From the NCBI GenBank assembly GCA_937871935.1, contig CALMQI010000209.1:1-58199 (forward strand): a stretch of 58,199 nt of DNA, in the 5' to 3' direction. This stretch comes from an uncultured Burkholderiales bacterium (GTDB lineage Bacteria; Pseudomonadota; Gammaproteobacteria; Burkholderiales; Burkholderiaceae_C). The position numbers were made by a program, and so were the translations under genes. This document shows positions 16,732 to 48,572 of the stretch, one piece after another. The notes beneath the pieces were generated by a model. That model had not been told where the DNA came from, made no database searches, and saw only the letters and a program-made list of their open reading frames with translations. Position 1 is the first letter of the stretch; each line of letters starts with the position of its first letter.

Positions 16732-16745
16732 ACTGGAGAAGCACC

Positions 16746-31495: not shown

Positions 31496-31523
31496 CACAG
31501 CTCCCAAAGTGATGACGGATATT

Positions 31524-31531
31524 ATCATGAT
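31524..31531. promoter_or_regulatory. ATCATGAT palindrome before the RES antitoxin
   Basis: Short perfect palindrome in an A+T-rich island (ATATTATCATGATT) just upstream of the antitoxin start. Candidate -10 region and operator for autorepression. Confidence 0.3.
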
Positions 31532-31774
31532 TGCACGCTCACCTTCATCATCGAGTCGGGGCCGACACGGGACACGTTGCCCGTGGGCCATGCTGCCGCC
31601 ACCCACTTCGCCGCAATGCCGCCGGACGCGTTGCGCCATCACGAAGCACCCGGCCTGCGGGGCGCTTTCGGGTGGCACGTGCCGGCGACCTCAGGTGTGA
31701 TCTTGAGCTTGGCCCCCTCGGGTGTCAGACTGCAAGGGCTACCCGTGGGCATCGCGCCTGCAAAGCCTTCACCA

Positions 31775-31852
31775 GAGGCTCCGGCCTCCTGAAGTCCAGT
31801 TCGCTGGCGTCGCAGTCGTTACCTGCCTTGTAGAGCCCGGACATCGATCCGG
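31775..31852 (+). repeat. Hairpin-flanked 22-nt repeat, copy 2
   Basis: The core at 31806-31827 is identical to copy 1. The upstream stem is GAGGC/GCCTC (31775-31779 with 31784-31788) and the downstream stem CCGGA/TCCGG (31837-31841 with 31848-31852). It lies about 190 bp before the gene at 32019. Confidence 0.7.
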
Positions 31853-31956
31853 TTCAGCCACGCCCGTGGCTGTGGATTGCGTTCAGCCCCCAGGCTGAAC
31901 AGCGTGGCCTTATGCCACAGAGCCGCTCCGCCGGTCACGGCCGGAGCATCCCGAAC

Positions 31957-32018
31957 GGGGAACCCCAAGTTCCCCGCCGGGGATGGGTGTTCCCTTTCAT
32001 TCGATGAAGGAGAACACC
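31957..32018 (+). promoter_or_regulatory. Structured mRNA leader that buries the ribosome site, copy 1
   Basis: Hairpin I is GGGGAAC/GTTCCCC (31957-31963 with 31969-31975). After GCCGGGGATGG comes hairpin II: GGTGTTC (31986-31992) pairs with GAACACC (32012-32018), which touches the start codon, and CTTTCAT (31994-32000) pairs with ATGAAGG (32004-32010). The Shine-Dalgarno AAGGAG (32007-32012) is wholly in the 3' strand of hairpin II. Confidence 0.68.
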
Positions 32019-32204
32019 ATGTTCGCTGTGCCAGTGACAAGAGTGCTGCGCCCTGTCGGGGTGCTGCTGGGCGGTTCCGGGCGTGCCCGTGAGCTGACCC
32101 TTCGCGCGCCGCACGTCGCCGCGCTGATGAAGCCGATTTCGTTTGCGTTCACGCAGGCGTTCGAGGCCGTCGAGAACCGCGCTGTGGAAGGGGCGTCATG
32201 CTGA
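32019..32204 (+). CDS. Small hypothetical protein of the accessory series
   Basis: 61 aa, basic, no recognised domain (MFAVPVTRVLRPVGVLLGGS at the start, two short helices after). The start is secure in context: AAGGAG lies 7 bp before ATG 32019 inside the leader hairpin shared with other genes here. Its stop overlaps the next start by 7 bp, so both are translated together. Function unknown. Confidence 0.55.
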   Translation: MFAVPVTRVLRPVGVLLGGSGRARELTLRAPHVAALMKPISFAFTQAFEAVENRAVEGASC

Positions 32205-32398
32205 CCACCCTCTACCGCAAGCGCATAGCTGCCCTGGCGATTCAACTCGCCAAGGATGACCCGCAAGTGGTCAAGGAAGTGATCGCCCGGCTGCGCAAGT
32301 CAGGCGAGATCGAGCCCGACGATCTGGTCTATCTGGACGAGATCGCCGACCGTTGGATCAGGATTGCCGAGGAGAACCGGCAGAAGGGGCGCCGCTGA
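32198..32398 (+). CDS. Small hypothetical protein, coupled to the preceding gene
   Basis: 66 aa, all helical by pattern, highly charged: LYRKRIAALAIQLAKDDPQV, then two helices rich in Glu and Arg ending EENRQKGRR. No known domain was recognised. ATG 32198 overlaps the upstream stop by 7 bp. Its last 41 bp overlap the end of the oppositely oriented gene at 32358-32624, a tail-to-tail arrangement. Confidence 0.55.
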   Translation: MLTTLYRKRIAALAIQLAKDDPQVVKEVIARLRKSGEIEPDDLVYLDEIADRWIRIAEENRQKGRR

Positions 32399-32624
32399 CC
32401 ACCGTGGTCAAACGCGCAGGGGGGTTCACGCCCTTCACCTTCGCCATCTCCGAGACGATCTTGTCCAGCAGATCAGGGCGTTCATCGGCAAGCGTACCGG
32501 CCCACGCGGCCAGCGCTTGTTCGATGTCGTCCTGCGTTCGCACCCCTTCGAAGTCGAGTCCGAGTGATCGGAACTCATCGACTTCGTCGGGGGTGAACCG
32601 TAGTGCCTTGCCTGCACGAAGCAT
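32358..32624 (-). CDS. Small acidic hypothetical protein, divergent from the 32756 gene
   Basis: 88 aa. The body (FTPDEVDEFRSLGLDFEGVR, then helices IEQALAAWAGTLA and DLLDKIVSEMAK) is acidic and helical, with a basic tail. No family was recognised; the two-helix pattern could be a small regulator. ATG 32624 is chosen because GGAGG lies 7 bp upstream; ATG 32639 would span that site. It is divergent from the gene at 32756, with the tandem TTGCAACC repeat between them. Confidence 0.5.
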   Translation of the reverse strand: MLRAGKALRFTPDEVDEFRSLGLDFEGVRTQDDIEQALAAWAGTLADERPDLLDKIVSEMAKVKGVNPPARLTTVVSGAPSAGSPRQS

Positions 32625-32674
32625 CGTGTGGGCCTCCATGTGCGGGCTGATCAGGTTATCAGCACCGCATGCCC

Positions 32675-32693
32675 TTGCAACCGATTTGCAACC
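32675..32693. repeat. Tandem TTGCAACC repeat between divergent genes
   Basis: TTGCAACC occurs twice (32675-32682 and 32686-32693) with an 11-bp period, one helical turn, so both copies face the same side of the DNA. Candidate binding site for a regulator of one or both divergent genes. Confidence 0.45.
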
Positions 32694-32696
32694 CTC

Positions 32697-32755
32697 GGGG
32701 AGCCCACCGCTTCCCGCCGGGGATGGGTGTTCCCTCTTTCACCGGAGTCAACACC
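32697..32755 (+). promoter_or_regulatory. Structured mRNA leader, copy 2
   Basis: Hairpin I is GGGGAG/CTTCCC (32697-32702 with 32710-32715, one G-U pair), followed by GCCGGGGATGG as in copy 1. Hairpin II is GGTGTT (32726-32731) with AACACC (32750-32755), which touches ATG 32756. CGGAG of the ribosome site lies inside. Confidence 0.6.
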
Positions 32756-33274
32756 ATGTTCCCTGAGAAACCCGAAAAGGTCCGTCCTCGTGCCAAGCGC
32801 TTCGGCGTCGAGTTCGAGGAAGAGCGCGCCTGGGTCAGCTTCTACCGCCGGGTGCGTCACGACGCGACCCTGGCCACCGAAGTGCTGGCCCAGCTTGAGG
32901 CCGATGCCGAGATGAAGCGCACGCACCTGGCCCTGGTGCTGTGCTGCAAGGAAGCCCTGCGCGCCCACAAGGCCCGCCAGGCCCGCGACAAGCGGATCGG
33001 CCAGTTCGTCCGCTGGGTCTGCCACGGGCTGTTTGCTGCACCCGTGCGCATGCTGCGCCGCGGCGGTGACATCGCCGTCGAGTGCCTGCCCGAGACCGGC
33101 AAGGAACCGGCGGTGCGCCAAGTGCGACGCCTGACGCGCGAGGCTGAATTCGCGCAGGCGCAATCGGCTTTCGCACCGCAGGCGGGCCCACCCGGCGCGG
33201 CGCCGGCCGCCGCGCAAACCGAGGCTTCACCGCCTCGCTCGCCACAAGCCCAGGCCACCCGCTCGGCGGCCTGA
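32756..33274 (+). CDS. Hypothetical plasmid/ICE-type protein
   Basis: 172 aa. An N-terminal charged part (residues 1-25), a helical middle (FYRRVRHDATLATEVLAQLE, LALVLCCKEALRAHKARQAR) and a Pro/Ala/Gln-rich tail from about 130 on. No named domain was recognised. ATG 32756 is fixed by its leader hairpin and CGGAG. It begins a same-strand series with the genes at 33450 and 34035, which have their own leaders. Role unknown. Confidence 0.55.
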   Translation: MFPEKPEKVRPRAKRFGVEFEEERAWVSFYRRVRHDATLATEVLAQLEADAEMKRTHLALVLCCKEALRAHKARQARDKRIGQFVRWVCHGLFAAPVRMLRRGGDIAVECLPETGKEPAVRQVRRLTREAEFAQAQSAFAPQAGPPGAAPAAAQTEASPPRSPQAQATRSAA

Positions 33275-33449
33275 CCCAGAGCGCCAGGCACCACCCGCCT
33301 GGCTCGGCACCACGGCGCCCACCGTGCTGCCCGAAGCGTCGAACGCTCACGCCCACCTCCACGGTGGTGCGCGACGCGCTCGGCCATCCCGCCCCTTCCA
33401 CGTCGACCTGCCGCCAGCCGGTCGTACCCCTCATGAAAGGAACTGTCCC

Positions 33450-33941
33450 ATGGCCCCTGCCAATGAAACGCCGCGTGCCTTCGAGGCACCCGCTCAGATC
33501 GCCAGTGCGCACGAACTGCGCCAACTTGCGCAAGACACCTTCGGATTGGGCATCCAACCCGAAGCCGCTCCGGCGATGCCGGCCCCAGGGCCGGAATCAA
33601 CTCCCGCCGCGATGAAGGCCAGCTACAAGGTCTTCCTCTACGACCGCGAATACGGCGACCTCACCGATGCCGTCACGACCGACTCGTTCGACGCCGGTGT
33701 GCAGCTGGTGCGCGACCGCTTGCCGGTGCAGGCCGACTACGTGGTGGAAGCCACGTGGACGCGCGGCATCGGCGAGATGGAAGTCCGCAGCCCCCGTGGC
33801 ACCGTGGTGGCCCGCGTCCAGCCTGTCGATGACACCGACGTCACCGTGCAGCCGCCCGTGACCAGGGCCTGCACGGCGTTGCAGGTCGGCGATGGCGCAC
33901 CGCTCGAGCAGTTGTTCAGCCCGCTGCCGGAAGCCGCCTGA
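33450..33941 (+). CDS. Hypothetical protein, accessory series
   Basis: 163 aa. After a disordered Ala/Pro-rich stretch (residues 1-52) comes a compact domain starting ASYKVFLYDREYGDLTDAVT and including YVVEATWTRGIGEMEVRSP, which alternates strands and helices. No known family was recognised. ATG 33450 is preceded by GAAAGGAAC at a usable distance. The 175-bp gap before it contains a CCAC/GTGG hairpin near 33355 but not the full leader structure. It follows the 32756 gene on the same strand. Confidence 0.55.
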   Translation: MAPANETPRAFEAPAQIASAHELRQLAQDTFGLGIQPEAAPAMPAPGPESTPAAMKASYKVFLYDREYGDLTDAVTTDSFDAGVQLVRDRLPVQADYVVEATWTRGIGEMEVRSPRGTVVARVQPVDDTDVTVQPPVTRACTALQVGDGAPLEQLFSPLPEAA

Positions 33942-33975
33942 AGCGCCGCCGGCACTGCAGTTCAACCAACCCCGA

Positions 33976-34034
33976 GGGGCACGCCGCCCCGACGGGTGCG
34001 GTCGTGTCCTTCGACCTCCATGAAGGAAGAGAAC
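33976..34034 (+). promoter_or_regulatory. Structured mRNA leader, divergent copy
   Basis: Hairpin I is GGGGC/GCCCC (33976-33980 with 33986-33990). Hairpin II is TCCTTC/GAAGGA (34007-34012 with 34022-34027), holding the ribosome site GAAGGA in its 3' strand, 8 bp before ATG 34035. Architecture as in copies 1-2, but the outer pairing at the start codon is missing. Confidence 0.5.
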
Positions 34035-34511
34035 ATGACCCCAGAGCAGACAAGCAACTCCGCGGACGCCACCGAGCCGGCGCGGTACGTGATCGACGAA
34101 GCGTCGGTCCTCGGCCGCAACCGGCGCATCCTGCTGGCGACGCTGACACAGGCCGGCGCCATCACGGCGACCGCCACCTACGTGGGCTGCGGCGACTCGG
34201 GCGGCGTCGAAGACGTGTCGGTCGAGATGCCGACCGAAGCGCCGTTCGACATGGCGGCGCTCGTCACCGTGTTCGCCGAACGCGGCGTCTTCGAGAACGG
34301 TGAGTGGCAGACCACCGTCGTCGAGCAACAGCTCAGCATCGAACAGGCCCTGCGCGACTTCGCCGACGAGGTCATCGATGTGGTCCATGGTGGATGGGAA
34401 AACGGCGACGGCGGCTCCGGCAAGGTGATCTTCGACTGCCATGCCGGAATGGTGCGCATCGAGCACACAGCCTACTTCACCGACTCCGACTACGAGGAGA
34501 CGACGTTGTGA
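34035..34511 (+). CDS. DUF6878 family protein
   Basis: 158 aa. The region ITATATYVGCGDSGGVEDVS and the end (GGWENGDGGSGKVIFDCHAG, then a short Asp/Glu-rich strand) fit the DUF6878 family found on plasmids and ICEs; the function is unknown. The predicted fold is a mixed alpha/beta domain. ATG 34035 follows GAAGGA in the leader hairpin. Its stop overlaps the next gene's GTG start (GTGA), the first of two coupled junctions in a three-gene set. Confidence 0.65.
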   Translation: MTPEQTSNSADATEPARYVIDEASVLGRNRRILLATLTQAGAITATATYVGCGDSGGVEDVSVEMPTEAPFDMAALVTVFAERGVFENGEWQTTVVEQQLSIEQALRDFADEVIDVVHGGWENGDGGSGKVIFDCHAGMVRIEHTAYFTDSDYEETTL

Positions 34512-35266
34512 CGCGCCCGACCGTGCACGTCTCGCTGGCGTGCTGGCCCGGGCTGCGCCACGACCTGGCCGCCCGGCATCTCGCAAGTGACGTGGTCGAG
34601 CCGCTGTTCGGAAGGCTGTGCACCGACCACGTCCAGCTCGTCCCGCAGAACTTCGGCGTCTTGACCGAGGCGATGGTCGATGGACTGATGGCCGCGTTTC
34701 TGCAGGTGCGCTTCAGGCTGCACGCCAACGTACGGGTGTTGCCCGAGCACCATCTGGCCGATCTGTCGGGCTACGCGGCGCACCGCGGGTGGTTCCGGCA
34801 GGCGGCCCGCATCAGCCGGCGGCTTGCCGCGCCGGCCTATACCGCGCATGCCGGCGCGCGACGCGACGCCGCCATGGCCGAGATGCTCGACCACACGCGC
34901 CGATGCGCGGACCTGTTCGGCTGCGTCGTCGGCGTCGAAGGACAGTACCCCACCGCAGGCGACCCATGGCTGGTCTCGACCTGGCCCGAGTATCGGCAGT
35001 TGTTGGAGTCGGGCGTGCCCTACGCCATCGACCTGTCGCACCTGCACATCCTGGCCTGCCACAGCGGCGTTCGCGACGACGCCCTCGTGCGCGACATGCT
35101 GGCCTGCGAGCGATGCATCGAAGTCCACGTCAGCGCCAACGACGGCCGGGGCGACTGGCATCAGATCTGCCAACGGCCGCCCTGGTGGTGGCCCTTGCTG
35201 CGACACATCAACCCCAACGCGGTGGTCTTCTCGGAAGGCAACCACCGCAGAAAGAAAATCGCATGA
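34508..35266 (+). CDS. TIM-barrel protein of the xylose isomerase/AP-endonuclease-like fold
   Basis: 252 aa. Metal-site residues of the sugar isomerase/endonuclease IV-like barrel are visible in order: Glu in GVEGQYP, Asp and His in YAIDLSHLHIL, His, Asn, Asp and His in EVHVSANDGRGDWH, and Glu in FSEGNHRR. A small-molecule isomerase, hydrolase or DUF692-like enzyme would fit; nothing nearby names the substrate. GTG 34508 overlaps the DUF6878 stop by 4 bp, and its own stop overlaps the next ATG by 4 bp. An intact metalloenzyme inside this plasmid-type series is unusual. Confidence 0.6.
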   Translation: MTRPTVHVSLACWPGLRHDLAARHLASDVVEPLFGRLCTDHVQLVPQNFGVLTEAMVDGLMAAFLQVRFRLHANVRVLPEHHLADLSGYAAHRGWFRQAARISRRLAAPAYTAHAGARRDAAMAEMLDHTRRCADLFGCVVGVEGQYPTAGDPWLVSTWPEYRQLLESGVPYAIDLSHLHILACHSGVRDDALVRDMLACERCIEVHVSANDGRGDWHQICQRPPWWWPLLRHINPNAVVFSEGNHRRKKIA

Positions 35267-35811
35267 ACACCACAGAGAACACCGACGTGCCCGACTACCG
35301 GGTCGATGCCTCGGGGGCGATCACCGTCACCGAAGCCGGTTTGGCCGTCGACCGCGCCTACCGCGAGGCCGAGCGCGCCTTCGACACGCTCCAGCACTGC
35401 TGGGCTGGCGCCTGCCTGGCGGGCCTGTTTGTGCGCCACCCCTGGCTGCAGTCGCTGCGCGCGACCTTGAGTGCATCGGCGGAGTACGACGATCAGGGCG
35501 GCACCTACCGTTCGATCAGCAGCGCCGTGACGCAGGCCGTGCCGGTGGCGGGTGCCACATTGCCCGACTCGGTGAACGACGAGGGCACCTTCGACGAGCT
35601 CGGCGCCATCGCCGTGATCGAGGCCGATCTCGATGAATGCGACTTCGATCTGTACACCTCGATCCACACCGCGCCGGATGACTACGCCGACCTGGTGCTG
35701 GAGCTGAGCCGCACGGCGATCGCGCCGCTGTTGAACGGTGCGACGATCAGCGGCGCCGAGGCCTACCGGGCTTGGTTTCCGGAGGACCCGCCGAACTCTG
35801 GCGCCGTCTGA
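35263..35811 (+). CDS. Hypothetical protein coupled to the TIM-barrel enzyme
   Basis: 182 aa, acidic. The N-terminal strand YRVDASGAITVTEAGLAVDR leads to a helix with two cysteines (LQHCWAGACLAGLFVR); the middle is rich in Ser/Thr and the C-terminal part is acidic (VIEADLDECDFDLYTSIHT). No family was recognised. ATG 35263 overlaps the TIM-barrel stop (ATGA), so it is probably made together with that enzyme and DUF6878. A strong bidirectional terminator follows. Confidence 0.55.
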   Translation: MNTTENTDVPDYRVDASGAITVTEAGLAVDRAYREAERAFDTLQHCWAGACLAGLFVRHPWLQSLRATLSASAEYDDQGGTYRSISSAVTQAVPVAGATLPDSVNDEGTFDELGAIAVIEADLDECDFDLYTSIHTAPDDYADLVLELSRTAIAPLLNGATISGAEAYRAWFPEDPPNSGAV

Positions 35812-35825
35812 CGATTCAGGCCTTC

Positions 35826-35861
35826 GAGCCCAGCGCCTCCACGTGCGTGGAGCCTGGGCTC
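35826..35861. terminator. Bidirectional terminator hairpin
   Basis: GAGCCCAG/CTGGGCTC (35826-35833 with 35854-35861) with an inner stem CTCCAC/GTGGAG (35837-35842 with 35847-35852), followed by a T-rich CTCTTGCTTT. It lies between two convergent genes. Confidence 0.75.
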
Positions 35862-35875
35862 TCTTGCTTTCGGGG

Positions 35876-36091
35876 CTACGCCGCTTGGCGACACCGTTGG
35901 TACTCGCGGTCGATCAGCCAGTGCAGGAACTGCGTCTCGCGCGACGCGCCCCAGTAGTGCGCCTTGCACCGGGCGACGTAGGCGTCGAACTCCGCCAGCG
36001 TGCGGATGCCCACCGGCGCGATGTCGGTGATCTTGGCGAAGCGCTCGACCTCACGGCGGGTGAGTCGAACCTGTTGACCGAGGCGGATCAT
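35876..36091 (-). CDS. Small hypothetical protein
   Basis: 71 aa from ATG 36091. Pattern: LTRREVERFAKITDIAPVGI as a possible helix-turn-helix, then FDAYVARCKAHYWGASRETQ and a C-terminal helix ending in Arg/Cys/Gln. The frame stays open upstream and could encode up to about 30 more residues, so the start is uncertain. A candidate promoter (TTGACA at 36199-36194) sits upstream on the same strand. It converges with the 35263 gene across the terminator. No family was recognised. Confidence 0.5.
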   Translation of the reverse strand: MIRLGQQVRLTRREVERFAKITDIAPVGIRTLAEFDAYVARCKAHYWGASRETQFLHWLIDREYQRCRQAA

Positions 36092-36170
36092 GGTGCGCGC
36101 GAACCGTTGTCGCACGCCATCTTGGCCGAGTCGCAAGCGTTTGTCGTCGATTGGACCAGCGGCTTGCGAA

Positions 36171-36199
36171 AGAATTCTGACGCGCGATTCCAATGTCAA
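36171..36199 (-). promoter_or_regulatory. Candidate sigma-70 promoter
   Basis: On the minus strand, TTGACA (36199-36194), a 17-bp spacer and AATTCT (36176-36171; 3 of 6 matches to the -10 consensus). It would drive the small gene ending at 35876. Confidence 0.35.
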
Positions 36200-36349
36200 C
36201 CGGGTCGCTTTCCAGCGCGACCGGCGCCTGAACCGCAGGATCGGCGCCGCCACCGGCAAGCCGAGCCCCGCGCCATCGCTTTGACATGGCGCCGCAATCC
36301 CAGGGCTTGCCGCCGCCCGGCAGGCGTCGCAGACTGCCCATTCCCCAGT

Positions 36350-36435
36350 GCACTTCCCAGCGAAGTGCCTTCCGGCGGAGCCGGCGTCGCAGTCGTCACC
36401 TGCCTTGTCATCAGCATGGGCCGTCCGGCCCGTGC
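36350..36435 (+). repeat. Hairpin-flanked 22-nt repeat, copy 3
   Basis: The core at 36383-36404 differs from copies 1 and 2 only by C for T at 36398. The upstream stem is GCACTTC/GAAGTGC (36350-36356 with 36362-36368, perfect). The downstream stem is GCATGGGCC/GGCCCGTGC (36414-36422 with 36427-36435, one wobble). It lies 100 bp before the radC-like gene. Confidence 0.72.
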
Positions 36436-36444
36436 ATCCCGAGC

Positions 36445-36505
36445 GGGAACCTCGTTCCCACCCGGGTTCGGCGTTCCCGCTTTCACATTCATGAAGGAGA
36501 ACGCC
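36445..36505 (+). promoter_or_regulatory. Structured mRNA leader, copy 3
   Basis: Hairpin I is GGGAAC/GTTCCC (36445-36450 with 36454-36459). Hairpin II is GGCGTTC (36470-36476) with GAACGCC (36499-36505), which touches GTG 36506, and CTTTCA with TGAAGG (36480-36485 with 36492-36497). AAGGAG (36494-36499) is buried. The pairs differ from copy 1 (GGTGTTC/GAACACC) at a compensated position. Confidence 0.68.
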
Positions 36506-37099
36506 GTGGACATGTCCACCCTTTCCAGGTCCGAGCTGGTCGGCGAGTTGCTCGCGCACGACCGCCGCTATCTTCCCGATGAGGTTCCCGATGAGCGCCT
36601 GCACGTCGCCGACGGCGAGCCGTTCCAAGGGCCGGTCATCGCGCAGCAGACGCTGCTCGACCACAAGCTCAGCGCCGCGCGCGAACTGATCCTGCGCGAC
36701 CTGCAGGCCCGCATGCGCGGTGCCCCGGTGATGAACTCGCCGCAGACCCTGCGTGAATGGCTGCGGCTGTACTGCGCCAGCCTGGAGCACGAGGTCTTCC
36801 TCGCTCTCTACCTCGACGCGCACCATGCCTTGATCGGCACCGAGCAGCTGTTCCGTGGCACGCTCACGCAAACCTCGGTGTACCCGCGCGAACTGGTCAA
36901 GGCGGCGCTGGCCCGCAACGCGGCGGCGGTGGCCGTCGCGCACAACCACCCCAGCGGCAATGCGGAGCCCAGCCGCGCCGACGAATTCCTGACGCAGACC
37001 CTCAAGTCCGCGCTGAGCCTGGTGGACGTTCGCTTCCTCGACCACTTCATCGTCGCCGGCGACCACGTCGTTTCGTTCGCCGAACGCGGGCTGGTCTGA
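36506..37099 (+). CDS. RadC/JAB-domain protein
   Basis: 197 aa. The JAB/MPN metalloprotease fold shows EVFLALYLDAHHALIGTEQL, VAVAHNHPSGNAEPSRADE (H-x-H-P-x-G) and VRFLDHFIVAGDHVVSFAE, the RadC type common on plasmids and ICEs. The metal motif is intact, yet no DNA repair role has held up for RadC. The N-terminal 90 residues lack the helix-hairpin-helix of chromosomal RadC. GTG 36506 is chosen because the leader hairpin ends at it, as the other leaders end at ATG; ATG 36512 is the alternative. First gene of a four-gene series to 38410. Confidence 0.83.
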   Translation: MDMSTLSRSELVGELLAHDRRYLPDEVPDERLHVADGEPFQGPVIAQQTLLDHKLSAARELILRDLQARMRGAPVMNSPQTLREWLRLYCASLEHEVFLALYLDAHHALIGTEQLFRGTLTQTSVYPRELVKAALARNAAAVAVAHNHPSGNAEPSRADEFLTQTLKSALSLVDVRFLDHFIVAGDHVVSFAERGLV

Positions 37100-37131
37100 G
37101 GCCAGCCTTCCGTTCAACGCGAAGGAACACC

Positions 37132-37311
37132 ATGTCCACCACCCCTGCACCACGCTGCCCCCTGTGCCCCGGACACGGCGTGCCGCTGGGCACGCTGGGC
37201 CGTCTACGCTGGTACCGCTGCCGTGACTGCGGCATGGACTTCAACCGTTCAGCGCCCAGCCGCAGCGCCCCGAGCCCCCTGCCCCAACGAGAAGGAGTTC
37301 ACCTTGAATAA
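37132..37311 (+). CDS. Small zinc-ribbon protein
   Basis: 59 aa. Two CxxC knuckles (CPLCPGHG and CRDCGMDFNR) separated by GTLGRLRWYR form a zinc ribbon; the tail is Ser/Pro-rich. Such proteins often bind nucleic acid or protein partners. ATG 37132 follows GAAGGA, and the leader can form CCTTC/GAAGG (37106-37110 with 37121-37125), again covering the ribosome site. Its last 8 bp overlap the next gene. Confidence 0.65.
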   Translation: MSTTPAPRCPLCPGHGVPLGTLGRLRWYRCRDCGMDFNRSAPSRSAPSPLPQREGVHLE

Positions 37312-37612
37312 CTCCACAGCCAAGAACCTGCTGCAGCACGTCGAACCGATGGCCGCGCTGTCGATCACGCATCTGACCGCGAGCACGCGCCAGAAGCTGG
37401 CGGCCGATGACCTGTCGGTCAACGCCTACCCCAACGAGTACGGTGGCTTTGTCTATGTCGGCGCGCCGCGGTACAGCGTGCCGACCGAGCCCGACCTGGC
37501 CACGATCTTCGACGTGGCCGAACAGGCCGGCATCGTGTGGCTGAAGTTCGACAGCGACGCCGCGGGTATCGACGGCCTGCCGATCTACGAGGGCGAAGAC
37601 CCGATCTCGTGA
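37304..37612 (+). CDS. DUF5983 family protein
   Basis: 102 aa. The middle YPNEYGGFVYVGAPRYSVPT and the end IVWLKFDSDAAGIDGLPIYE match the DUF5983 family of plasmid/ICE proteins as I know it; the function is unknown. It starts with TTG 37304 after GAAGGAG, inside the end of the zinc-ribbon gene, so translational coupling is likely. Compact alpha/beta fold expected. Confidence 0.68.
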   Translation: MNNSTAKNLLQHVEPMAALSITHLTASTRQKLAADDLSVNAYPNEYGGFVYVGAPRYSVPTEPDLATIFDVAEQAGIVWLKFDSDAAGIDGLPIYEGEDPIS

Positions 37613-37661
37613 GGCCGCCAGGCTGAAACACCACGCCACCCTACCGGTGGTTCCGAGCCCC

Positions 37662-37694
37662 GCAGGGCGCTGCGCCGCAAGGCCGGCGCCCTGC
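37662..37694 (+). promoter_or_regulatory. Strong hairpin in the 37613-37738 leader
   Basis: Perfect 9-bp stem GCAGGGCGC/GCGCCCTGC with a 15-nt loop, 45 bp before ATG 37739. A smaller stem CCACC/GGTGG (37636-37640 with 37646-37650) precedes it. No U-run, so leader control rather than termination. Confidence 0.5.
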
Positions 37695-37738
37695 TTCATT
37701 TGGAGCAATCACATGCACACACTTCCGGAGGTCACCCC

Positions 37739-38410
37739 ATGGAATCGGTGACCCTCAATCGCGAGCAACGGCTCTACGTCATCGCCGATGGCGGTGGCTT
37801 CAGTTGCCTCGGCTTCGACAACGCGCGCGGCCATGCCGACCAGATCGCGCGGAGACTCCGGCAGCCCGACCTGGCCTTCACGGACGAAGACGCCGACACC
37901 CTGGCCGGCTACCGCAAGTACCAGGCCGCCACGCGCGCCTGGGGCCAGTCGGCATTGACCTATGACACCTACTTCGACCCCGGAACCCACGCCGAGGTCA
38001 TCAAGGTCCTTGAGGCCTGCCGCAAGACGCGCAACCAGGTGCGCCTGGTCTATGGCGACACCCGCAACGGGCAAACATGGTTCGACGAGTTCGACGTGGT
38101 CGGCCGCATCGGCCGCTCCACCGCTTGGCTCAAGGTGCCCTTGTTGATCGAGGCGGGCGAAGCCGGCGGCGGGGCCATCCTGACGGCCTGCCTGTTGTGC
38201 ATCATCGACTGGCAATCCGGCGTCGCGCTGTACACGCACCCCAGCTACCAGGTGCCGGACTTGCGCCTGGTTCCGACGGGCGACGGCAGCCACCCGTGGG
38301 GTGTCGAACATCAACGTTACGAACTGGCCCGGTTCGGCGACATCGGCAAGGCCAGTGCCTACCTGGCGTTCATGCGCGGCGAGACGATCGAGCCGAGAGT
38401 CTTCCGCTGA
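37739..38410 (+). CDS. Hypothetical protein, last of the accessory series
   Basis: 223 aa. Starts with MESVTLNREQRLYVIADGGG, then a charged region containing QVRLVYGDTRNGQTWFDEFD and VGRIGRSTAWLKVPLLIEAG, which looks like an SH3-like beta barrel, and ends in a helical tail. Related proteins occur on ICEs and plasmids without assigned function. ATG 37739 follows GGAGG, spaced 7 bp. It faces the end of sbcC with a 69-bp gap in which no clear terminator was seen. Confidence 0.6.
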   Translation: MESVTLNREQRLYVIADGGGFSCLGFDNARGHADQIARRLRQPDLAFTDEDADTLAGYRKYQAATRAWGQSALTYDTYFDPGTHAEVIKVLEACRKTRNQVRLVYGDTRNGQTWFDEFDVVGRIGRSTAWLKVPLLIEAGEAGGGAILTACLLCIIDWQSGVALYTHPSYQVPDLRLVPTGDGSHPWGVEHQRYELARFGDIGKASAYLAFMRGETIEPRVFR

Positions 38411-38479
38411 GACCTCCGCGCCTCATCGGGCGGGCCGGGCTGGCCATCGGGCAGCTCGGCCCCGCTGCTGTCGGACCGC

Positions 38480-40957: not shown

Positions 40958-41068
40958 GGCGGGGCCCCTGGAGACTTGGTTGAGGAAGTCTCTCGTGGGT
41001 TGGTGCCAGGTCAAGTCCATCGACGACCAGCAATTCCGGCGGGCCGGCCGGATAGCGACGGCAATCTT

Positions 41069-41890: not shown

Positions 41891-41900
41891 GACTCGCCCC

Positions 41901-42758: not shown

Positions 42759-42774
42759 GATGGGATCCAGACGG

Positions 42775-42796
42775 AAAAAAGGGCGCTTGCGCGCCC
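42775..42796 (-). terminator. Terminator-like hairpin just upstream of the LOTUS gene
   Basis: On the minus strand GGGCGC-GCAA-GCGCCC followed by six T (42796 to 42775): a perfect 6-bp stem, GNRA-type loop and U-run. It ends 16 bp before ATG 42758. Either it ends the sbcD transcript or it is an attenuator for the LOTUS pair. Confidence 0.6.
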
Positions 42797-42953
42797 AGAT
42801 TTCCAGTGTTAGCTCCATTCGCGGGCCAGAACCCTTGGGCAGAAACCCAATACGCCGGGGTCTTAGAGTGTGACCACAACTAATCCGCGTCGCGCCAGCC
42901 GTTGACCTTCCGGACGAATTCAGGGGTAGCCTGCCTCATACGGAATCGTTGCA

Positions 42954-42962
42954 ATCATACCA
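42954..42962 (-). promoter_or_regulatory. Candidate extended -10 promoter for the LOTUS pair
   Basis: TGGTATGAT on the minus strand (42962 to 42954) matches an extended -10 element; no good -35 was seen. The transcript would cross the terminator-like hairpin before the gene. Confidence 0.3.
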
Positions 42963-43053
42963 CGTCGCGCAGGAAGGTCGCCAGCTTGCTACCGCCCAAC
43001 GACCGGCCGCCGTTGCGTGACGCGAAGGGTGCACTGGTCGGAAGCCCACCTTA

Positions 43054-44439
43054 TCAGGCAGACCTGTCGCTTGGCCGCCCCGCGCCATGCACCGCGAAGG
43101 TCCTTCGTGCGCCGTGGAGAGCACCGCCATCCAGTTGCTCCGTCTCGTTCGCCCAGTCACTGACGCAAGCCGTCTCGACCAGCAGCGGCGCAGCGCGCTC
43201 CCGAGCGTGCGGCAGTTCGCCCCGCAACACCCGCTCGGCGATGTCCTCCCCCCTCTCCGCTTCAAGTTGCGCCAGGCACGCCAGCAAGGGCCCCGGCTTC
43301 GCCTGGGTCACCAGCGCCCACTGCCGCACCTTGTCGGCCAGACTGGCCGCACGCGAGATGCCGGCGGCGCGGGTGCGCACCACGGGCACGATGCGGCCCT
43401 CCAGCTTGACCTCCGCGGCGCGCCCGAGTTCGCGCTCGATCAGCGCGCGGTCCACTTCGTGTCGGTCCTCGTCCGCCACCGTCCAACGCACACGAACATG
43501 CGCGCCCGCGATGTCTTGTTGCGCAATGGTGATGCGCAATGCGTCGAGGTCCGGCTTGCCTTCGAAGAAGATATCGACCGTCCGCCGCGCAGGCGTAGGC
43601 ACCTGGTCAAAGCGCGCCCCGTCGGCATCGACCTCCCACATCAGGAACCCTTTCTCGCCCTCCTCGCCGTAGTGAAAGCGCCCGATGGACCCGGCGTAAG
43701 CCACGCACTGCTGCCCCGCCCGTCCGGCGCGCTGCCACGCCTGATGCCGGTGGATGTGCCCGAGCATGAAAGCCTGGGCCTCGGCCGCAAACAGCGCCCC
43801 GGTGGTGAACTCGTGGTCGAAGCCGGCCATCGGCACGCCGTGTTCGCTGAGGCAGCCAAACACGGTGCCATGCGACACGCCGATGGTCGGCACGCCCCGC
43901 TTGCGGGCGGCGCGGTGCCCTGGCGCGAAGCCGGCCAGCAGCGCGGCCAGTTGCTCGCCGGTGGCCTCGGCCGCCACGCCCGCCCCCAGGGCGGCGGCGA
44001 CCATGGCCTTGTTGATGGTGGGCACGCACGAGAACAAGGCTTGCACGCCCGCAGGCACCCCGTCGAAGCGCCAACCGTCCGACACCACCCACCGGCCGTC
44101 ACCCGCCAGGCCGACCTGGGCGATGCGGTCAGCCACATGCACAGGGTAGCGCCCGCCCAGCAGCCGGAACAGGGCCAAGGTGCCGGGTGGCTCGTGCGAG
44201 AACGTGCCCTGCAGCATCAGCACCGGGCAATGGTCGGCCAGCCGCCGCACCTGCCGGGCCAGACGCTCAGCCGACGGCGAGTGCAGGTCGTGGGCGTGGT
44301 CTGTGGCGTCGCCCGAAAGCACGGCCACCTGGGCGCCCAGCGTGATGGCCCGGTCCACCGCGGCGCCGAAGCAGCGGTCGGCCTCGGCCAGATTCTTCGG
44401 CCCGTAGTGCAGGTCGGAACAGTGTGCGATGCGGATCAT
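43054..44439 (-). CDS. sbcD: SbcD-like metallophosphoesterase of the SbcCD nuclease
   Basis: 461 aa. Calcineurin-like motifs: CSDLHYG (residues 7-13), LSGDATDHA, VSHGT and GHIHRHQ. The Mre11 motif normally written GNHD/E reads QGTFSHEPPG here: His and Glu are kept, Asn is absent and extra residues intervene. Plasmid-type SbcD variants can look like this, but it may alter metal binding. A C-terminal capping region of about 180 residues follows. ATG 44439 overlaps the upstream gp3-like gene's stop (ATGA). It would pair with SbcC to process DNA ends, useful to a replicating or conjugating element. Confidence 0.82.
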   Translation of the reverse strand: MIRIAHCSDLHYGPKNLAEADRCFGAAVDRAITLGAQVAVLSGDATDHAHDLHSPSAERLARQVRRLADHCPVLMLQGTFSHEPPGTLALFRLLGGRYPVHVADRIAQVGLAGDGRWVVSDGWRFDGVPAGVQALFSCVPTINKAMVAAALGAGVAAEATGEQLAALLAGFAPGHRAARKRGVPTIGVSHGTVFGCLSEHGVPMAGFDHEFTTGALFAAEAQAFMLGHIHRHQAWQRAGRAGQQCVAYAGSIGRFHYGEEGEKGFLMWEVDADGARFDQVPTPARRTVDIFFEGKPDLDALRITIAQQDIAGAHVRVRWTVADEDRHEVDRALIERELGRAAEVKLEGRIVPVVRTRAAGISRAASLADKVRQWALVTQAKPGPLLACLAQLEAERGEDIAERVLRGELPHARERAAPLLVETACVSDWANETEQLDGGALHGARRTFAVHGAGRPSDRSA

Positions 44440-45752
44440 GCCGCTCTCCCCGCGGCCACGGCCTGCAGTTCGCTCTCGATCTTGTCGAGATAGCTCGCGG
44501 GATCGTTACGGTAGCGCGCCAGTTCGTCCCAGGCCCGTGCCCGCCCCTGCGGGTTGATCTTCCAGCCGGGGCCCCATCGAAGGTCGGCATAGCCGGTGTA
44601 GCGCTGCCGGTCGATGCCGAACGCCTGCGCTTGAGACAACAGGTCTTCCAGTGAGGGGCGCCCATCGCGCGCCTTCGGCCGTGGTCCCGCGTGCGCGGAG
44701 TTTGGTGCTGCGATGTCCTGCGGTTCGCCCGGCGCGGCAACCCTGTCGCCATCAGCCTCCAGCACGGTCGGTCCGCTGAGAATCTGCGTCGCGAGTTGGG
44801 CTTGCACGAGCGCGGCCTCGTCGTCATCGCGGTCGCGCAACAACGCGGTCACGTCCACTGGCGCTTCGAGTTCGATGATCCACTGCGGCACCCTCGCCGG
44901 CCTGCCCTGCTCGTCGATGTGCGCCACCTCGACCAGCTTCTTGCTCAGGTAGAACGGTGTGCGCTGGCTGTCCAGGAAGCCCGAGATGCGCCCGCCGCGC
45001 AGGAAGGCGATGGTCTCGAACTTCTGAATCGCCGCGTTCATCGCGTAGAAGCTGCGCGTGTGCAACTCGAACGCGCTGATCGACCGGACGCCGGGGATGA
45101 AGAACAGGAAGCGTCCGCTGAGGTTGCACTGCCGCTGCTGGTACTCGGGGCAGCCTTCGGGGTCGCAGATGCCACCGTTGGCATCGCGTGCCACCGTCTT
45201 GCGCCCACCGAAGACTCGGATGACACGCTTGCCGGTGTCGTCGAAAGGCACTGGCGCGTGGGTCTTGCAATGGCGCACCCGCCCATCGGGGGAATACTCC
45301 GACCAGTAGCGCTTTTCGTTCGCGCCCCAGGCCGCCAGTTCGTGTGGCATCACCACCTGCCAGTGGTCCGACGGGAACACCACCGGAAAGCGATAGAGCC
45401 GATGGCCATCGCCGCGGTCTTCGCCGAAGGCACGAAGGATCTGCTGCGCGATCTCCGGGTTCGAGAAGTCCTGCCCGCGCACGGTGAACCAGGGCACGTT
45501 CTTCGGCACCAGCGGTGTCTTCAGGCGCGGCAGAGCCGTGGCCAGCGCCTGCTCGATCTGGTCGAACGACTGGCCCGCCGCAACGCCCTGTTCGTAGATG
45601 GCGCGCGCCTGCGGGTTCTCGGCGGCGGCGCGGCTGAGCGTCTTGGTCCCGGCGCGGATCTTCCCGCCGGTCGGAATGCGTGCTGGGCCTTGCCCCAGCA
45701 CGGTGGCTGGCACCGCGTCGCTGCCGCGGTGGCTGACGATGGATTGCGTCAT
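44436..45752 (-). CDS. gp3-like putative recombination directionality factor/metal-binding protein
   Basis: 438 aa. The central domain (LYRFPVVFPSDHWQVVMPHE, a Cys-rich CDPEGCPEYQQRQC, LSGRFLFFIPGVRSISAFEL, ETIAFLRGGRISGF) resembles the phage gp3-like family, whose best-known members switch serine integrases from integration to excision. On ICEs such proteins are often listed as hydrolase or metal-binding proteins. The four cysteines could bind zinc. The Ala-rich C-terminal part carries a small GYADLRWGPGWKINPQGR module. ATG 45752 is chosen because GAGGAG lies 7 bp upstream. It overlaps sbcD by 4 bp. No serine integrase is in the window, so an excision role is uncertain. Confidence 0.6.
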   Translation of the reverse strand: MTQSIVSHRGSDAVPATVLGQGPARIPTGGKIRAGTKTLSRAAAENPQARAIYEQGVAAGQSFDQIEQALATALPRLKTPLVPKNVPWFTVRGQDFSNPEIAQQILRAFGEDRGDGHRLYRFPVVFPSDHWQVVMPHELAAWGANEKRYWSEYSPDGRVRHCKTHAPVPFDDTGKRVIRVFGGRKTVARDANGGICDPEGCPEYQQRQCNLSGRFLFFIPGVRSISAFELHTRSFYAMNAAIQKFETIAFLRGGRISGFLDSQRTPFYLSKKLVEVAHIDEQGRPARVPQWIIELEAPVDVTALLRDRDDDEAALVQAQLATQILSGPTVLEADGDRVAAPGEPQDIAAPNSAHAGPRPKARDGRPSLEDLLSQAQAFGIDRQRYTGYADLRWGPGWKINPQGRARAWDELARYRNDPASYLDKIESELQAVAAGRAA

Positions 45753-45866
45753 CTCTGCGCTCCTCATGATTGGCGATGTGTCGCTTCCATGGTCTCGCGG
45801 GGTCGGGCCGCGTCAACCTGTCCCGCGACCGTTGCGCCTTGCGGGGTGACGCTGCCGGCGGCCGAG

Positions 45867-47096
45867 CTATCGCTCCGCCACCAGCGTCGGCAGTGGCGGC
45901 ATCGCCTGGTCTGTCGCCCACACCCACACCGCTTCACCGGCCCGCGCTATCGCATGGTCCTTGTCCACGCGGGCCTTCGGCGCCATGAAGGCGCTGACGA
46001 CATGCAGGGGCACGGGCTTCGGCCCCATGTCCAGCAGCAGCGCGTTCGGAAACGCGCCGTTCGTCGCCGCGTCGTAGCGCAGTGGCTTTGCAAAGCGCCG
46101 CCCCTGCTCCACCAGGGCATGCACCAGCGGCAGCTCGTGGATGGCGTCGATCGGGATCCAGTGCTCGGTGGTCATCATCAGGCTGGCGGCGTCGATCTCG
46201 TAGGTGTACTCGCGCCGGGCCCGCACCAGGGCAGCCAGCATCAGGCGCACCCGGTGGCCGGTGTCCGCGTCCCGGGCTTCGAACATCGGCGCGAACACCT
46301 TCTCGATCCTTGCCCAGGTCTTGCCAGCAATCAGCAGCGGCGCATCGGGCATGTGCTTGACCCAGACTCTGCAGCCGCCGACTGCCGTGTCGCTGCCCTT
46401 GAACTCGCCCAGCACCAGCGCCAGCGGGCTGTGACCGTCGTGGGGCCGCAGCACGGCCAGCTTCTCGCGGCGCCGCTGCGCCGCGTCGGCCTTGGTCGCC
46501 TCGATGAATGGTTCGGGCACGTACAGGCGCTCAGTCAAGGCCACGCCCTTCACCGACACGTCCTCGGCGGCCTCCAGCAGGTACTTGTGCAGCACGCCCT
46601 GATTGCGCTTGCCCACCATCGCCGGGCTCCAGCGGTTGAAGCCGGCCCGCTCGAACAGGTAGTGCATCAGCGCCCGCAGGCTCATCCGCCGCCGGGCCAC
46701 GCCGACTTCGGCCTCCGCGTCGCTCTCACCGCGGGTGGCGCCACGCCCCGTGGTGCGAGTCCACGGAAAATCCACCCGCAGGTCAACGCGGCCTACGGTG
46801 GTCTCGAGCACCGCTTCGCCGATCAGTTCACCCAGCCCCGACTCCTGTGCCTCGGGTTCATACGACAGGCAGCTTGCGTGATGGTGGCTGCCCGTGTCGG
46901 GCATGCGCTTGACCATGAACTGCCGGTGGCGTGCCACGTACATCTCCACGCCGCCAGGCACGCACAGACAACGTGGCCGTTCCGGTGTGTCGTGGACGCG
47001 GGCCAGCGCCTGCTGCAGCTGCGCGTCGTCGGCGTTCCACACGCGGCCCAGGATGGAGAAGCGTTGGATGTCCACCATCGTCGCGCTCGCAACCAT
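45867..47096 (-). CDS. DUF1173 family protein
   Basis: 409 aa. Family features: CLCVPGGVEMYVARHRQFMV, RMPDTGSHHHASCLSYEPEA (Cys/His pattern that may bind metal), SLRALMHYLFERAGFNRWSP and ARREYTYEIDAASLMMTTEH. DUF1173 proteins occur on large plasmids and ICEs of proteobacteria near conjugation and partition genes; the function is unknown. It starts directly after the stop of the recombinase-like gene (TGA-ATG), so the pair is coupled. ATG 47078 is an alternative start. Confidence 0.78.
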   Translation of the reverse strand: MVASATMVDIQRFSILGRVWNADDAQLQQALARVHDTPERPRCLCVPGGVEMYVARHRQFMVKRMPDTGSHHHASCLSYEPEAQESGLGELIGEAVLETTVGRVDLRVDFPWTRTTGRGATRGESDAEAEVGVARRRMSLRALMHYLFERAGFNRWSPAMVGKRNQGVLHKYLLEAAEDVSVKGVALTERLYVPEPFIEATKADAAQRRREKLAVLRPHDGHSPLALVLGEFKGSDTAVGGCRVWVKHMPDAPLLIAGKTWARIEKVFAPMFEARDADTGHRVRLMLAALVRARREYTYEIDAASLMMTTEHWIPIDAIHELPLVHALVEQGRRFAKPLRYDAATNGAFPNALLLDMGPKPVPLHVVSAFMAPKARVDKDHAIARAGEAVWVWATDQAMPPLPTLVAER

Positions 47097-48038
47097 TCAC
47101 ACCAGTTCGCGCACCAGCTCCGACATCGTCGGCCGATGCTTCGGGAACAGTTCCCGCACCGCGCTGCGGCCGTTGATGCCCAGCAGCAGGCCGACCTGTT
47201 CTTCATCCGCGCCGCGTTCGTACAAACGGGCCGCGACGGTGTGCCGCGCCGACAGCGGCGTCACGTCGCGCAGGTCGGCATGGCGAAACAGCTTGCGATA
47301 AGCCTCCAGGATGGGCCGGCACAGGTAGCGGCGCTGCCCTTCTTCGCCATACGGCTTGATGGCGAAGCCGAGTCCGCCGGGCGACAGGAACAGGCAGCTC
47401 CGGGGATCCAGGCCTCGGTAGTCGGCGCTTGCGGCAAGGCCCAGGCCCTGCTCGATGCGCTCGCGCAGGTAGGTCGCGAGTGCATCGTCGAGCCGGGTGC
47501 TGGTGAAGTACAGCGGGCGCGGCTTGCCGGTGATCGCGGCTTCAGCCCGCAGTTCGGATGCGCGGCGCACGCTGCCGTCGGGCCCGAGGTAGTCGCGCAC
47601 CTCGAACCGCGCAATCTCCAAGGGGCGCGCGCCGGTCGCGAACAGCATGTAGAACAGCGATTGGTCGTGCCAGGGCCGCGCACTGCGCGCCTTGATCCGC
47701 AGCGCTGCTTGCGTGATCTCTTCGCTCGAAACCACCCGGTGCTGGCGCGGGCCGAACGGCGCTGGCGGCTCGAAGCCGGCCAGCGCGACCAGGATCGATT
47801 CGCGGTGCTGGCGCAGGCGCTGCACGAAGGCCACACCCTCGGTGGTGAGGCCCTCGATGCCGACCGTCTTGCTGAGGCGGACGGCGACCGCCTTGATGCG
47901 GCGCTCCACCGCCGTGCGCGTGACGCCGAAGCGCGCTGCGACCGCGTCGTAGGTGGCGCCATCGACAACGGCCTTCAACATCTCGATGGCTTGCGCGGCG
48001 TTGTCGTTGCCGCGCTCGGGCACTTGATCGACTGGCAT
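47097..48038 (-). CDS. Tyrosine recombinase-like protein lacking catalytic residues, copy 1
   Basis: 313 aa. An N-terminal helix-turn-helix (TYDAVAARFGVTRTAVERRI, residues 30-49) is followed by a recombinase-like fold. The first catalytic Arg is in place (FATGARPLEIARFE) and a second Arg in LSARHTVAARLYERGA. However, the His normally three residues before the second Arg is Leu, the LGH position reads LGI, and no Tyr is found at the nucleophile site (AVRELFPKHRP). A close paralogue at 53680-54618 has the same losses, so the form is maintained. It may bind DNA without cutting it. ATG 48038 matches the start of that paralogue. Confidence 0.72.
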   Translation of the reverse strand: MPVDQVPERGNDNAAQAIEMLKAVVDGATYDAVAARFGVTRTAVERRIKAVAVRLSKTVGIEGLTTEGVAFVQRLRQHRESILVALAGFEPPAPFGPRQHRVVSSEEITQAALRIKARSARPWHDQSLFYMLFATGARPLEIARFEVRDYLGPDGSVRRASELRAEAAITGKPRPLYFTSTRLDDALATYLRERIEQGLGLAASADYRGLDPRSCLFLSPGGLGFAIKPYGEEGQRRYLCRPILEAYRKLFRHADLRDVTPLSARHTVAARLYERGADEEQVGLLLGINGRSAVRELFPKHRPTMSELVRELV

Positions 48039-48329
48039 CACCTGCCCCCCCAACACTGCGGTTCTCCGCGGCTGCGATGCACGCATGTTCGGCCGCCCGT
48101 GCTTTCACCGCCAGGGTCAATCGCCTGCAAAGACACGGGGTTTCGGGATCGGCGCGTTGGCCGTCACTCATGAACAAGTGGCCCGGCCGCTGCGCAGGCG
48201 AACAGGCTCACGGTTGCCATCCTCAATGGCGCTGCCACGCAAGGGCTTTTGCATGGCGAGTCGGCCCGCCACCGGCTTGCGCGCGCGGCCCCGCGCAAAC
48301 TGCCGGGGCATCTTGGCTCCGGCCAAAGC

Positions 48330-48406
48330 GCGCCCATCCGGGCGCCCCTGAATCCGTTCAGGCGTCGCGGTCGTTACCCGCCTTCCTCGCTGCGCGGCAA
48401 CGCGCA
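48330..48406 (+). repeat. Hairpin-flanked 22-nt repeat, copy 4
   Basis: The core at 48361-48382 reads GGCGTCGCGGTCG then TTACCCGCC, two changes from copy 1. The upstream stem is GCGCCC/GGGCGC (48330-48335 with 48340-48345) and the downstream stem TGCGCG/CGCGCA (48391-48396 with 48401-48406, loop GCAA). It lies 190 bp before the giant methylase/helicase gene. Confidence 0.7.
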
Positions 48407-48510
48407 TCACCAAAGCATCGGGGCCCTGCCCTGAGCTGAGCCAGTCGCAAGGCGTCGCTTGACGCCTGGCCCCGGGTCGACCGCGACCCCCATCCTGCCA
48501 ACCCACCCAC

Positions 48511-48572
48511 GGGGAGCACGCCTCCCCGCCGGGGATGGGCGTGTCTCTCCCATTCATCTGGAGAACACGCCC
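48511..48572 (+). promoter_or_regulatory. Structured mRNA leader, copy 4
   Basis: Hairpin I is GGGGAG/CTCCCC (48511-48516 with 48522-48527), then GCCGGGGATGG as in copies 1 and 2. Hairpin II is GGGCGTGT (48537-48544) with ACACGCCC (48565-48572), which touches ATG 48573, and TCTCC with GGAGA (48546-48550 with 48560-48564): the ribosome site GGAGA is fully paired. The stem differs from the other copies at compensated positions. Confidence 0.7.

Follow-up and report, generated by a model that had tools for sequence, protein, structure and literature searches.

Why do several genes of one bacterial contig share a leader that ends in a hairpin over the ribosome-binding site? The question is raised by contig CALMQI010000209.1 of an uncultured Burkholderiales bacterium (our C209, in a genome assembly of 463 contigs), whose whole analysed stretch of 58,199 nucleotides (nt) is here called the window. 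Leaders A, B, C and D precede the genes that start at 32019, 32756, 36506 and 48573. From predicted folds and from pairing tests in relatives we conclude that the tails of these leaders are probably bistable translational switches, in which the strand that blocks the Shine-Dalgarno (SD) sequence would alternate between two partners.

Five segments and two folds

When read directly, each tail comprises an upstream hairpin of the GGGG type (HP1) and a second hairpin that covers the SD (HP2), and in all four leaders the 3' arm of HP2 ends at position -1 of the start codon. This bears out the recurrent pair of hairpins that an earlier note on this DNA had described. The HP2 arms pair GGTGTTC/GAACACC in A, GGTGTT/AACACC in B, GGCGTTC/GAACGCC in C and GGGCGTGT/ACACGCCC in D. 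The linker that the earlier note called usual, GCCGGGGATGG, is present in A, B and D and absent from C. The window contains the exact sequence CCCGCCGGGGATGGG at 31973, 32713 and 48525 and nowhere else; when three mismatches or fewer are allowed, the linker pattern gives six matches versus seven expected, i.e. not above chance. What had been missed is that the 5' arm of HP1 mimics the SD strand, being itself complementary to the strand that blocks it.

We divide each tail into five segments: the 5' arm and loop of HP1 (1), its 3' arm (2), the G-rich linker (3), the SD-blocking strand (4) and the SD strand, which ends at the start codon (5). All lie on the plus strand and come from folding, with additional grounds given in brackets. 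In leader A, segment 1, the SD-strand mimic, spans 31955–31968 (also covariation in relatives), segment 2 31969–31976, segments 3 and 4, i.e. the G-rich linker and the SD-blocking strand GGTGTTCCC, 31977–32004, and segment 5, the SD strand TGAAGGAGAACACC, 32005–32018 (also reading). The corresponding stretches of B are 32696–32709, 32710–32716, 32717–32741 and 32742–32755. Those of C are 36440–36453, 36454–36465, 36466–36491 (where the isolated tail favours the pairing of 1 with 4) and 36492–36505, and those of D are 48510–48521, 48522–48528, 48529–48558 and 48559–48572; the CACGC of segment 1 in D can pair with the GCGTG of segment 4. In A and C, segment 4 (TTCCC) matches segment 1 (GGGAA) better than it matches the SD (GGAGAA), as judged by reading.

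Two exclusive folds are thereby proposed. In the OFF state, segments 1 and 2 would form HP1 and segments 4 and 5 would form HP2, with the SD covered as far as the start codon. In the ON state, segment 1 would pair with 4 and segment 2 with 3, which would give a single long hairpin and leave segment 5 free. Since the G-rich linker pairs with the 3' arm of HP1 in the predicted ON fold, it gains a role.

Relatives of the leaders

A scan of a genome collection for the HP2 core yielded 119 stretches (loci, numbered with L), mostly from Betaproteobacteria as judged by eye among the 80 titles listed. The pattern (GGYGTTCCC..GGAGAACRCC-ATG, with an HP2 spacer of 4–24 nt) fixes HP2, and therefore HP2 in the pattern-matched leaders is no evidence; some of these 127 leaders also look like chance matches. 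Viral contigs gave no match to the HP2 pattern and plasmids none to leader A, and the D-leader stretch matched two plasmid records within the gene only. Homologues were found by tblastn in 37 (gene A), 62 (gene B) and 66 (gene C) of the 119 loci. As nearly all B leaders and some A and C leaders fall outside the search pattern, the structure could be tested without that bias. By reading, these unselected relatives show HP2 as GGTGTT/AACACC, GGGGTTC/GAACCCC, GGAAA/TTTTC and in other versions.

The leaders that did not match the pattern, 78 in number (75 from the loci and three from the window), were reduced to 30 that are under 80% alike. Before the reduction we dropped 18 unselected C rows (16 with a mis-picked start codon in or near the gene, and L115 and L122) as well as B of L071 and L118 and A of L152 (upstream sequence too short), and three C leaders were trimmed back to the leader's own start. 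A second set was drawn from leaders headed by two known Rfam motifs, radC RNA (RF01754) and DUF3577 RNA (RF02954). It started from 43 rows of 38 radC loci (in L193 and L202 the starts were mis-picked), of which 20 were annotated by eye; together with two DUF3577 tails they gave 17 non-redundant ones. Both sets add up to 47 tails, each set having been made non-redundant separately; jointly, 46 of the 47 are under 80% alike.

The SD-blocking strand covaries with two partners

We compared the RNA duplex energy of each leader's own segments with that of segments permuted between leaders. Among the 47 tails, own segments paired better for HP1 (-11.3 versus -8.4 kcal/mol), for HP2 (-12.9 versus -10.2 kcal/mol) and for the competing pairing of 1 with 4 (-15.7 versus -13.0 kcal/mol), with 0/10,000 permutations in each case, within gene groups as well. 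The SD is thus part of a conserved covarying stem, though one predicted by folding in 21 of 30 relatives, and the matched base changes that the earlier note had seen in four leaders are found again in 47 leaders chosen for neither HP2 nor HP1. The SD-blocking strand has, moreover, a second, exclusive covarying partner in segment 1. All three pairings reached 0/10,000 in the 17 radC- and DUF3577-headed tails alone. Three controls were null in the 47 tails, namely segment 1 with 5 (3835/10,000), the upstream 25 nt with 3 and 4 (9572/10,000) and reversed 3 and 4 (1974/10,000), and they were null in the 17 tails too.

In the set of 30 leaders, HP1 and HP2 each gave 0/5000, also within gene groups, and 1·4 gave 0/5000 overall and 46/5000 within gene groups. 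Lower identity limits, which leave 46, 36 and 25 tails, did not alter the duplex-energy result (0/10,000 for HP1, HP2 and 1·4); when the longest helix was used as the measure, HP1 and 1·4 stayed at 0/10,000 and HP2 gave 0, 9 and 7 per 10,000. The pairs between 1 and 4 vary from GGGAAC/GTTCCC through GGAGGG/CCCTCC, CAAGGGA/TCCCTTG, CGGGAG/CTCCCG and GCAGGGGAACG/CGTTCTCCTGT to TTTTCG/CGGAAA. In L100, for example, the 5' arm and loop of HP1, GGGGAGTCCACC, resemble the SD strand GGAGAAAACACC. G-U pairs favour the sense strand as the paired one, both for 1·4 (56/484 versus 26/447 on the antisense strand) and for HP1 (18/319 versus 7/299), and both helices are stabler on the sense strand.

Predicted accessibility of the SD

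The predicted unpaired fraction of positions -14 to -1 is 0.08 in A, 0.30 in B, 0.12 in C and 0.06 in D, compared with 0.33–0.84 in five other genes of the block, which agrees with the placement of the SD inside the stem in the earlier note; B is nearly level with the gene at 37132 (0.33). When the upstream part is shuffled for comparison, opening the SD comes out as costly in A (3/200) and D (8/200), as borderline in B (16/200) and as not costly in C (138/200). Folded in isolation, the tails of A and D are mostly OFF and that of B favours another local pairing; with longer flanking sequence HP2 is predicted in both B and C. When segment 5 is removed, 1·4 outcompetes 1·2 in 28 of 30 relatives' tails and in A, B, C and D. 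In complete tails HP1 exceeds 1·4 in 11 of 30. In a nascent transcript that still lacks segment 5, the 1·4 hairpin would therefore be predicted to win, and once segment 5 is present the outcome may vary between leaders.

Weaker versions of the layout had also been suspected before 34035 and 37132. The first did not stand up to folding (opening cost 2.7 kcal/mol, 96/200 shuffles). The second is doubtful: its SD can pair (11.7 kcal/mol, 16/200 shuffles), but its layout differs from that of the four leaders. As side observations, the leader of the 34035 homologue in L143 opposes GGGGAAACACC and GGTGTTTCCCC in a single 11-bp hairpin that resembles the ON fold without HP1, and homologues of 37132 (e.g. 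in L091, L112 and L136) show by eye an HP1-like hairpin and an SD stem of the CCCTTC/GAAGG type, of which the window copy looks like a weak remnant.

A conserved head upstream of A, C and D

Three of the four leader genes (A, C and D) carry a conserved head 100–225 nt upstream. It has the form P1-CGUC-P2, i.e. a variable hairpin followed by GCRG-UCG[U/A][U/C]AC-CYGC, and all copies in the window are on the plus strand. The head of leader A (31795–31828; 41.9 bits) consists of P1 (CCAG..CTGG) and then P2, GCAG-TCGTTAC-CTGC, an exact pattern found 0 times in shuffles; with filters off it also scores 43.0 bits as 31780–31828. The heads of C (36371–36405; 45.6 bits) and D (48346–48383; 44.1 bits) follow, the latter with a compensatory change in the P2 stem (GCGG/CCGC). 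A fourth copy (20742–20780; 37.8 bits) lies about 690 nt before an integrase-like gene, and by eye no HP1/HP2 tail was recognised with it; in L053 a similar copy stands at a similar distance before an open reading frame (ORF). These four are the clear copies of the head model in the window (37.8–45.6 bits), the next best scoring 16.6 bits. No clear copy was found with the model upstream of gene B. Since B has a tail without a head, the head is not required for the existence of the tail. Further predicted hairpins lie between head and tail in A (31830–31950) and D (48390–48500).

In the 119 loci and the window the head was seen 127 times, one instance (L098) later being set aside as chance. The inner pairs of P2 are complementary in 96 of 97 contexts (AG/CT 78, GG/CC 17, GA/TC 1) in a search that did not require pairing. 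The third pair of P1 is GC in 24, AT in 8, TA in 8 and CG in 8 among 50, and own versus swapped arms gave 0/5000, a figure that leans because P1 had been fitted to pairing. Indeed, the first head scan demanded stem complementarity and the later selection kept P1 hairpins with a loop of 5 and at least four pairs, so that head statistics selected on pairing are circular for P1 and partly for P2, the search of 97 contexts being the unbiased check of P2. One of the analyses used 46 of 49 printed sequences and another 22 of 23. Of 12 genomes traced through the loci, 11 contain 2–9 copies by the model; the twelfth, fetched via a likely chance match, contains none. In a census of 300 genomes, with 22 candidates scored per genome, at least two carry the head, one being the window's own. 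Of 21 loci selected by the head (L210 and L215–L234), 19 gave output and 17 show a tail by eye, but they are not independent, as most of their genomes were originally found through the tail pattern. No family of Rfam 15 matches the window head, and an Rfam search (E<=10) of six leader loci and of L002 gave no match at the leaders.

Tails of the same design behind radC and DUF3577 RNAs

Each of 15 non-redundant annotated radC RNAs is followed by a tail of the HP1/HP2 design that lies outside the Rfam model. Examples are GGAGGG..CCCTCC followed by GGCGCCCTCC..GGAGGTTCGCC, CAAGGGA..TCCCTTG followed by TCCCTTG..CAAGGAG, and GCGGGG..CCCCGC followed by GGTGTGTCTCC..GGAGATTCACC. DUF3577 RNA is present twice in L138, on the minus strand at 1626–1741 and 5210–5321 (54.9 and 50.3 bits), upstream of ORFs of 105 and 254 amino acids, and each copy has an SD-burying tail of the same type downstream; by eye, these two ORFs do not look like DUF3577 proteins. 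Tails of one design thus stand behind three kinds of head.

Neither motif is the identity of the window leaders. RF01754 (cut-off 40 bits) gave no match in the window even at E<=10, its best score in the whole genome being 25.3 bits outside the window, and RF02954 (cut-off 42.6 bits) gave no match in the window either. Conversely, the window-head model found no match beyond chance scores on 14 radC loci and L138 (best on radC loci 15.1 bits). Among 15 genomes to which the loci led, 3 contain radC RNAs above the cut-off, as do 7 of 300 genomes of the order. In its table, Weinberg 2010 (PMC2864571) rates radC RNA 'Y' as an RNA, 'y' as cis-regulatory and '?' as a riboswitch.

Since a genome holds several copies and the heads vary from element to element, we suspect a trans-acting regulator that the element itself encodes. 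The separate head (P1-CGUC-P2, radC RNA or DUF3577 RNA, depending on the element) would be its likely site, from which the balance of the tail may be tipped, and the regulator itself would probably be a protein or an RNA.

Genes of the element

Gene A (32019–32204, plus strand) is a conserved small ORF of 61 amino acids (..LLGGSG..) and gene B (32756–33274, plus strand) encodes 172 amino acids, both without a Pfam or NCBIfam family. Gene C (36506–37099, plus strand, GTG start) encodes a RadC-like JAB-domain protein (Pfam RadC, 8.7e-42), and gene D (48573–53579, plus strand) a methyltransferase/helicase-like protein of 1668 amino acids (Pfam Eco57I, ResIII, Helicase_C). At E<=1e-40, a survey that serves as context only found RadC in 92 of the 150 genomes covered in this order, all matches outside the window being at most 65% identical. 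Divergent from B is an ORF of 93 amino acids on the minus strand (32358–32639), without a Pfam or NCBIfam family. The DNA of this ORF seems to be conserved before B in relatives, and the short leader of B may share its promoter region. Pfam further identifies integrases at 16593–18005 and 21448–22662 (the latter in the integrase-like ORF of 21448–22665; Phage_int_SAM_2/Integrase_1), a recombination-directionality-factor-like protein (44436–45767) and a DUF1173 protein (45867–47096). Integrases, the RadC-like protein and the last two proteins make the content of the window fit an integrated mobile element. No secretion genes were seen among the ORFs scanned, so that 'ICE' stands as a label of the earlier note.

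Weighing the switch against other readings

The switch reading presumes that the leaders are transcribed, that the RNA would be the acting molecule, that translation is what it controls, and that a regulator, whichever its sign, would act on it. Several observations weigh against this reading. On the side of folding, HP2 with at least three expected pairs is predicted in only 21 of 30 complete tails, and the cost of opening the SD in 30 relatives averages 5.2 kcal/mol versus 5.1 kcal/mol for shuffled upstream sequence (positions -62 to -1 alone, HP1 being cut in some), only two of the 30 reaching 5/100 or less. When the head is added, the predicted folds of A and D are fully OFF and that of C is mostly OFF. 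On the side of covariation, the 1·4 signal is weaker within the A, B and C gene groups alone (72/10,000; whole chimera 18/10,000), the inner helix of this pairing gives 242/10,000 within groups and 52–74/10,000 in B, and in the B group significance is lacking both for the 5' arm (2370/10,000) and for the loop (3632/10,000) when each is taken by itself. The 2·3 helix, whose letters are nearly invariant, shows no covariation (-7.1 versus -7.0; 2868/10,000). The control of segment 1 with the last 14 nt is unclean in the 30 leaders (130/5000, and 391/5000 within groups). Segment 2 with 5 beats permutation too (0/10,000), as is expected if segment 2 resembles 4, so that repeat-like resemblance is not fully separable from selection for pairing. 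Because the boundaries of HP1 were drawn by eye, its test is partly circular. Finally, no consensus promoter of the sigma-70 type was found in the two regions scanned (31500–37200 and 47900–48650), P1 of the head leans to the antisense strand (p 0.059), and HP2 is stabler on the antisense strand (-14.9 versus -12.9 on the sense strand). The last value fits mismatches forced by the SD, yet gives no help to the RNA reading, and the count of G-U versus A-C in HP2 (6 versus 12) is uninformative because of these mismatches.

The earlier note had held that these genes may be off until something opens the stem. Its family of leaders, the SD inside a stem and the compensatory changes are borne out, but this claim is not supported as stated. 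The competing pairing covaries equally, and since the opening cost equals that of shuffles, HP2 is predicted in 21 of 30 and the isolated tail of C is mostly ON, favouring the 1·4 hairpin, the SD seems poised between two states and not just locked. Moreover, B leaders of L066, L055, L135 and L160 keep HP1 without a convincing SD stem, and the RadC homologues of L115 and L122 may start without such a leader, their starts being possibly genuine. Plain sequestration, in which a factor opens HP2 and HP1 is an independent stabilising hairpin, is an unlikely alternative. Covariation of both hairpins would suit it, as would the predicted folds of A and D, which lie nearly entirely in this state whether the head is included or not. 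It would leave needless the covariation of the 5' arm and loop of HP1 with segment 4 (0/10,000 in the 47 tails, and also in the 17), and in A and C segment 4 suits segment 1 better than the SD.

We consider it still less probable that the element acts as DNA, either through hairpins of the transferred strand that serve as a single-stranded DNA promoter of the Frpo kind or through protein-binding palindromes upstream of early genes. The gene content of the window, which we take to resemble that of early or leading regions, and the greater stability of HP2 on the antisense strand would accord with it. However, the 3' arm in the window contains the SD and has a fixed position relative to the start codon, and for 1·4 and HP1 the sense strand shows an excess of G-U pairs. 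The inner spacer of HP2 varies widely among the fetched leaders and is thus ill-suited to an operator in double-stranded DNA. The head, for its part, may still act at the DNA level.

Transcription attenuation or protection of the mRNA in place of translation control is very improbable: long predicted hairpin chains in leaders A and D would fit, but HP2 of B, C and D has no terminator-like site, A has a single weak one (31979–31994, in a region with 5 versus 2.9 expected), and the SD-anchored geometry would be left unexplained. That the pairings merely reflect G+C-rich composition and common descent is hardly credible, since partner-specific complementarity persists in 25 tails under 62% identity, with the two controls run there null, even if the opening cost matches shuffles in 30 leaders and the mismatch-tolerant linker pattern is not above chance in the window.

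The bistable switch is hence the reading that we favour, and it allows a more speculative extension. As 1·4 beats 1·2 without segment 5, a transcript would be open first and might close later. Such a self-timed switch, open in new transcripts before the SD strand exists and then refolding into the closed form, is conceivable, though we would not count on it. If it were true, early proteins would be made in a short, self-ending pulse after a burst of transcription, such as one on entry into a new cell, and the interchangeable heads, three of which were seen and one of which is new, would set the delay for each element's regulator.

Relation to known systems

The proposal is that a single type of translational switch serves unrelated heads in integrated mobile elements, which here come mostly from Betaproteobacteria. 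It would offer a concrete mechanism for the radC and DUF3577 RNAs, two Rfam motifs whose function is unexplained, and it adds a third head, which no Rfam 15 family matches. If it is true, translation of early mobile-element genes would be coordinated by RNA folding, in our judgement a rarely considered layer of control. In the open-access literature searched, we found no description of this tail or head, though others may have priority.

radC RNAs form a family of conserved structured heads in the leaders of mobile-element genes, a RadC-like gene among them. The head in the window likewise stands in leaders of such genes, one of them RadC-like, but unlike radC RNA it is not recognised by RF01754, and that Rfam model, at 149 positions, does not reach the tail. 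DUF3577 RNA, which reportedly comes from a 2017 paper, precedes HP1/HP2-type tails in both of its L138 copies, as the window heads do; the window head differs from it, and the RF02954 model (105 positions) also ends before the tail. Single-stranded DNA promoters of the Frpo kind have been described for the leading regions of conjugative plasmids. They share with our leaders the hairpins upstream of early mobile-element genes, whereas the structure in the window is anchored on the SD and the start codon and the scan of two regions found no promoter consensus. Two-state SD leaders and the expression platforms of riboswitches are of a known kind, and the leaders described here resemble them in having two exclusive folds, one of which hides the SD. 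Unlike riboswitch-type platforms, however, the tail of the window type is joined to at least three heads and occurs in several copies per genome, and these copies with their element-specific heads argue for a trans-acting factor over a metabolite riboswitch.

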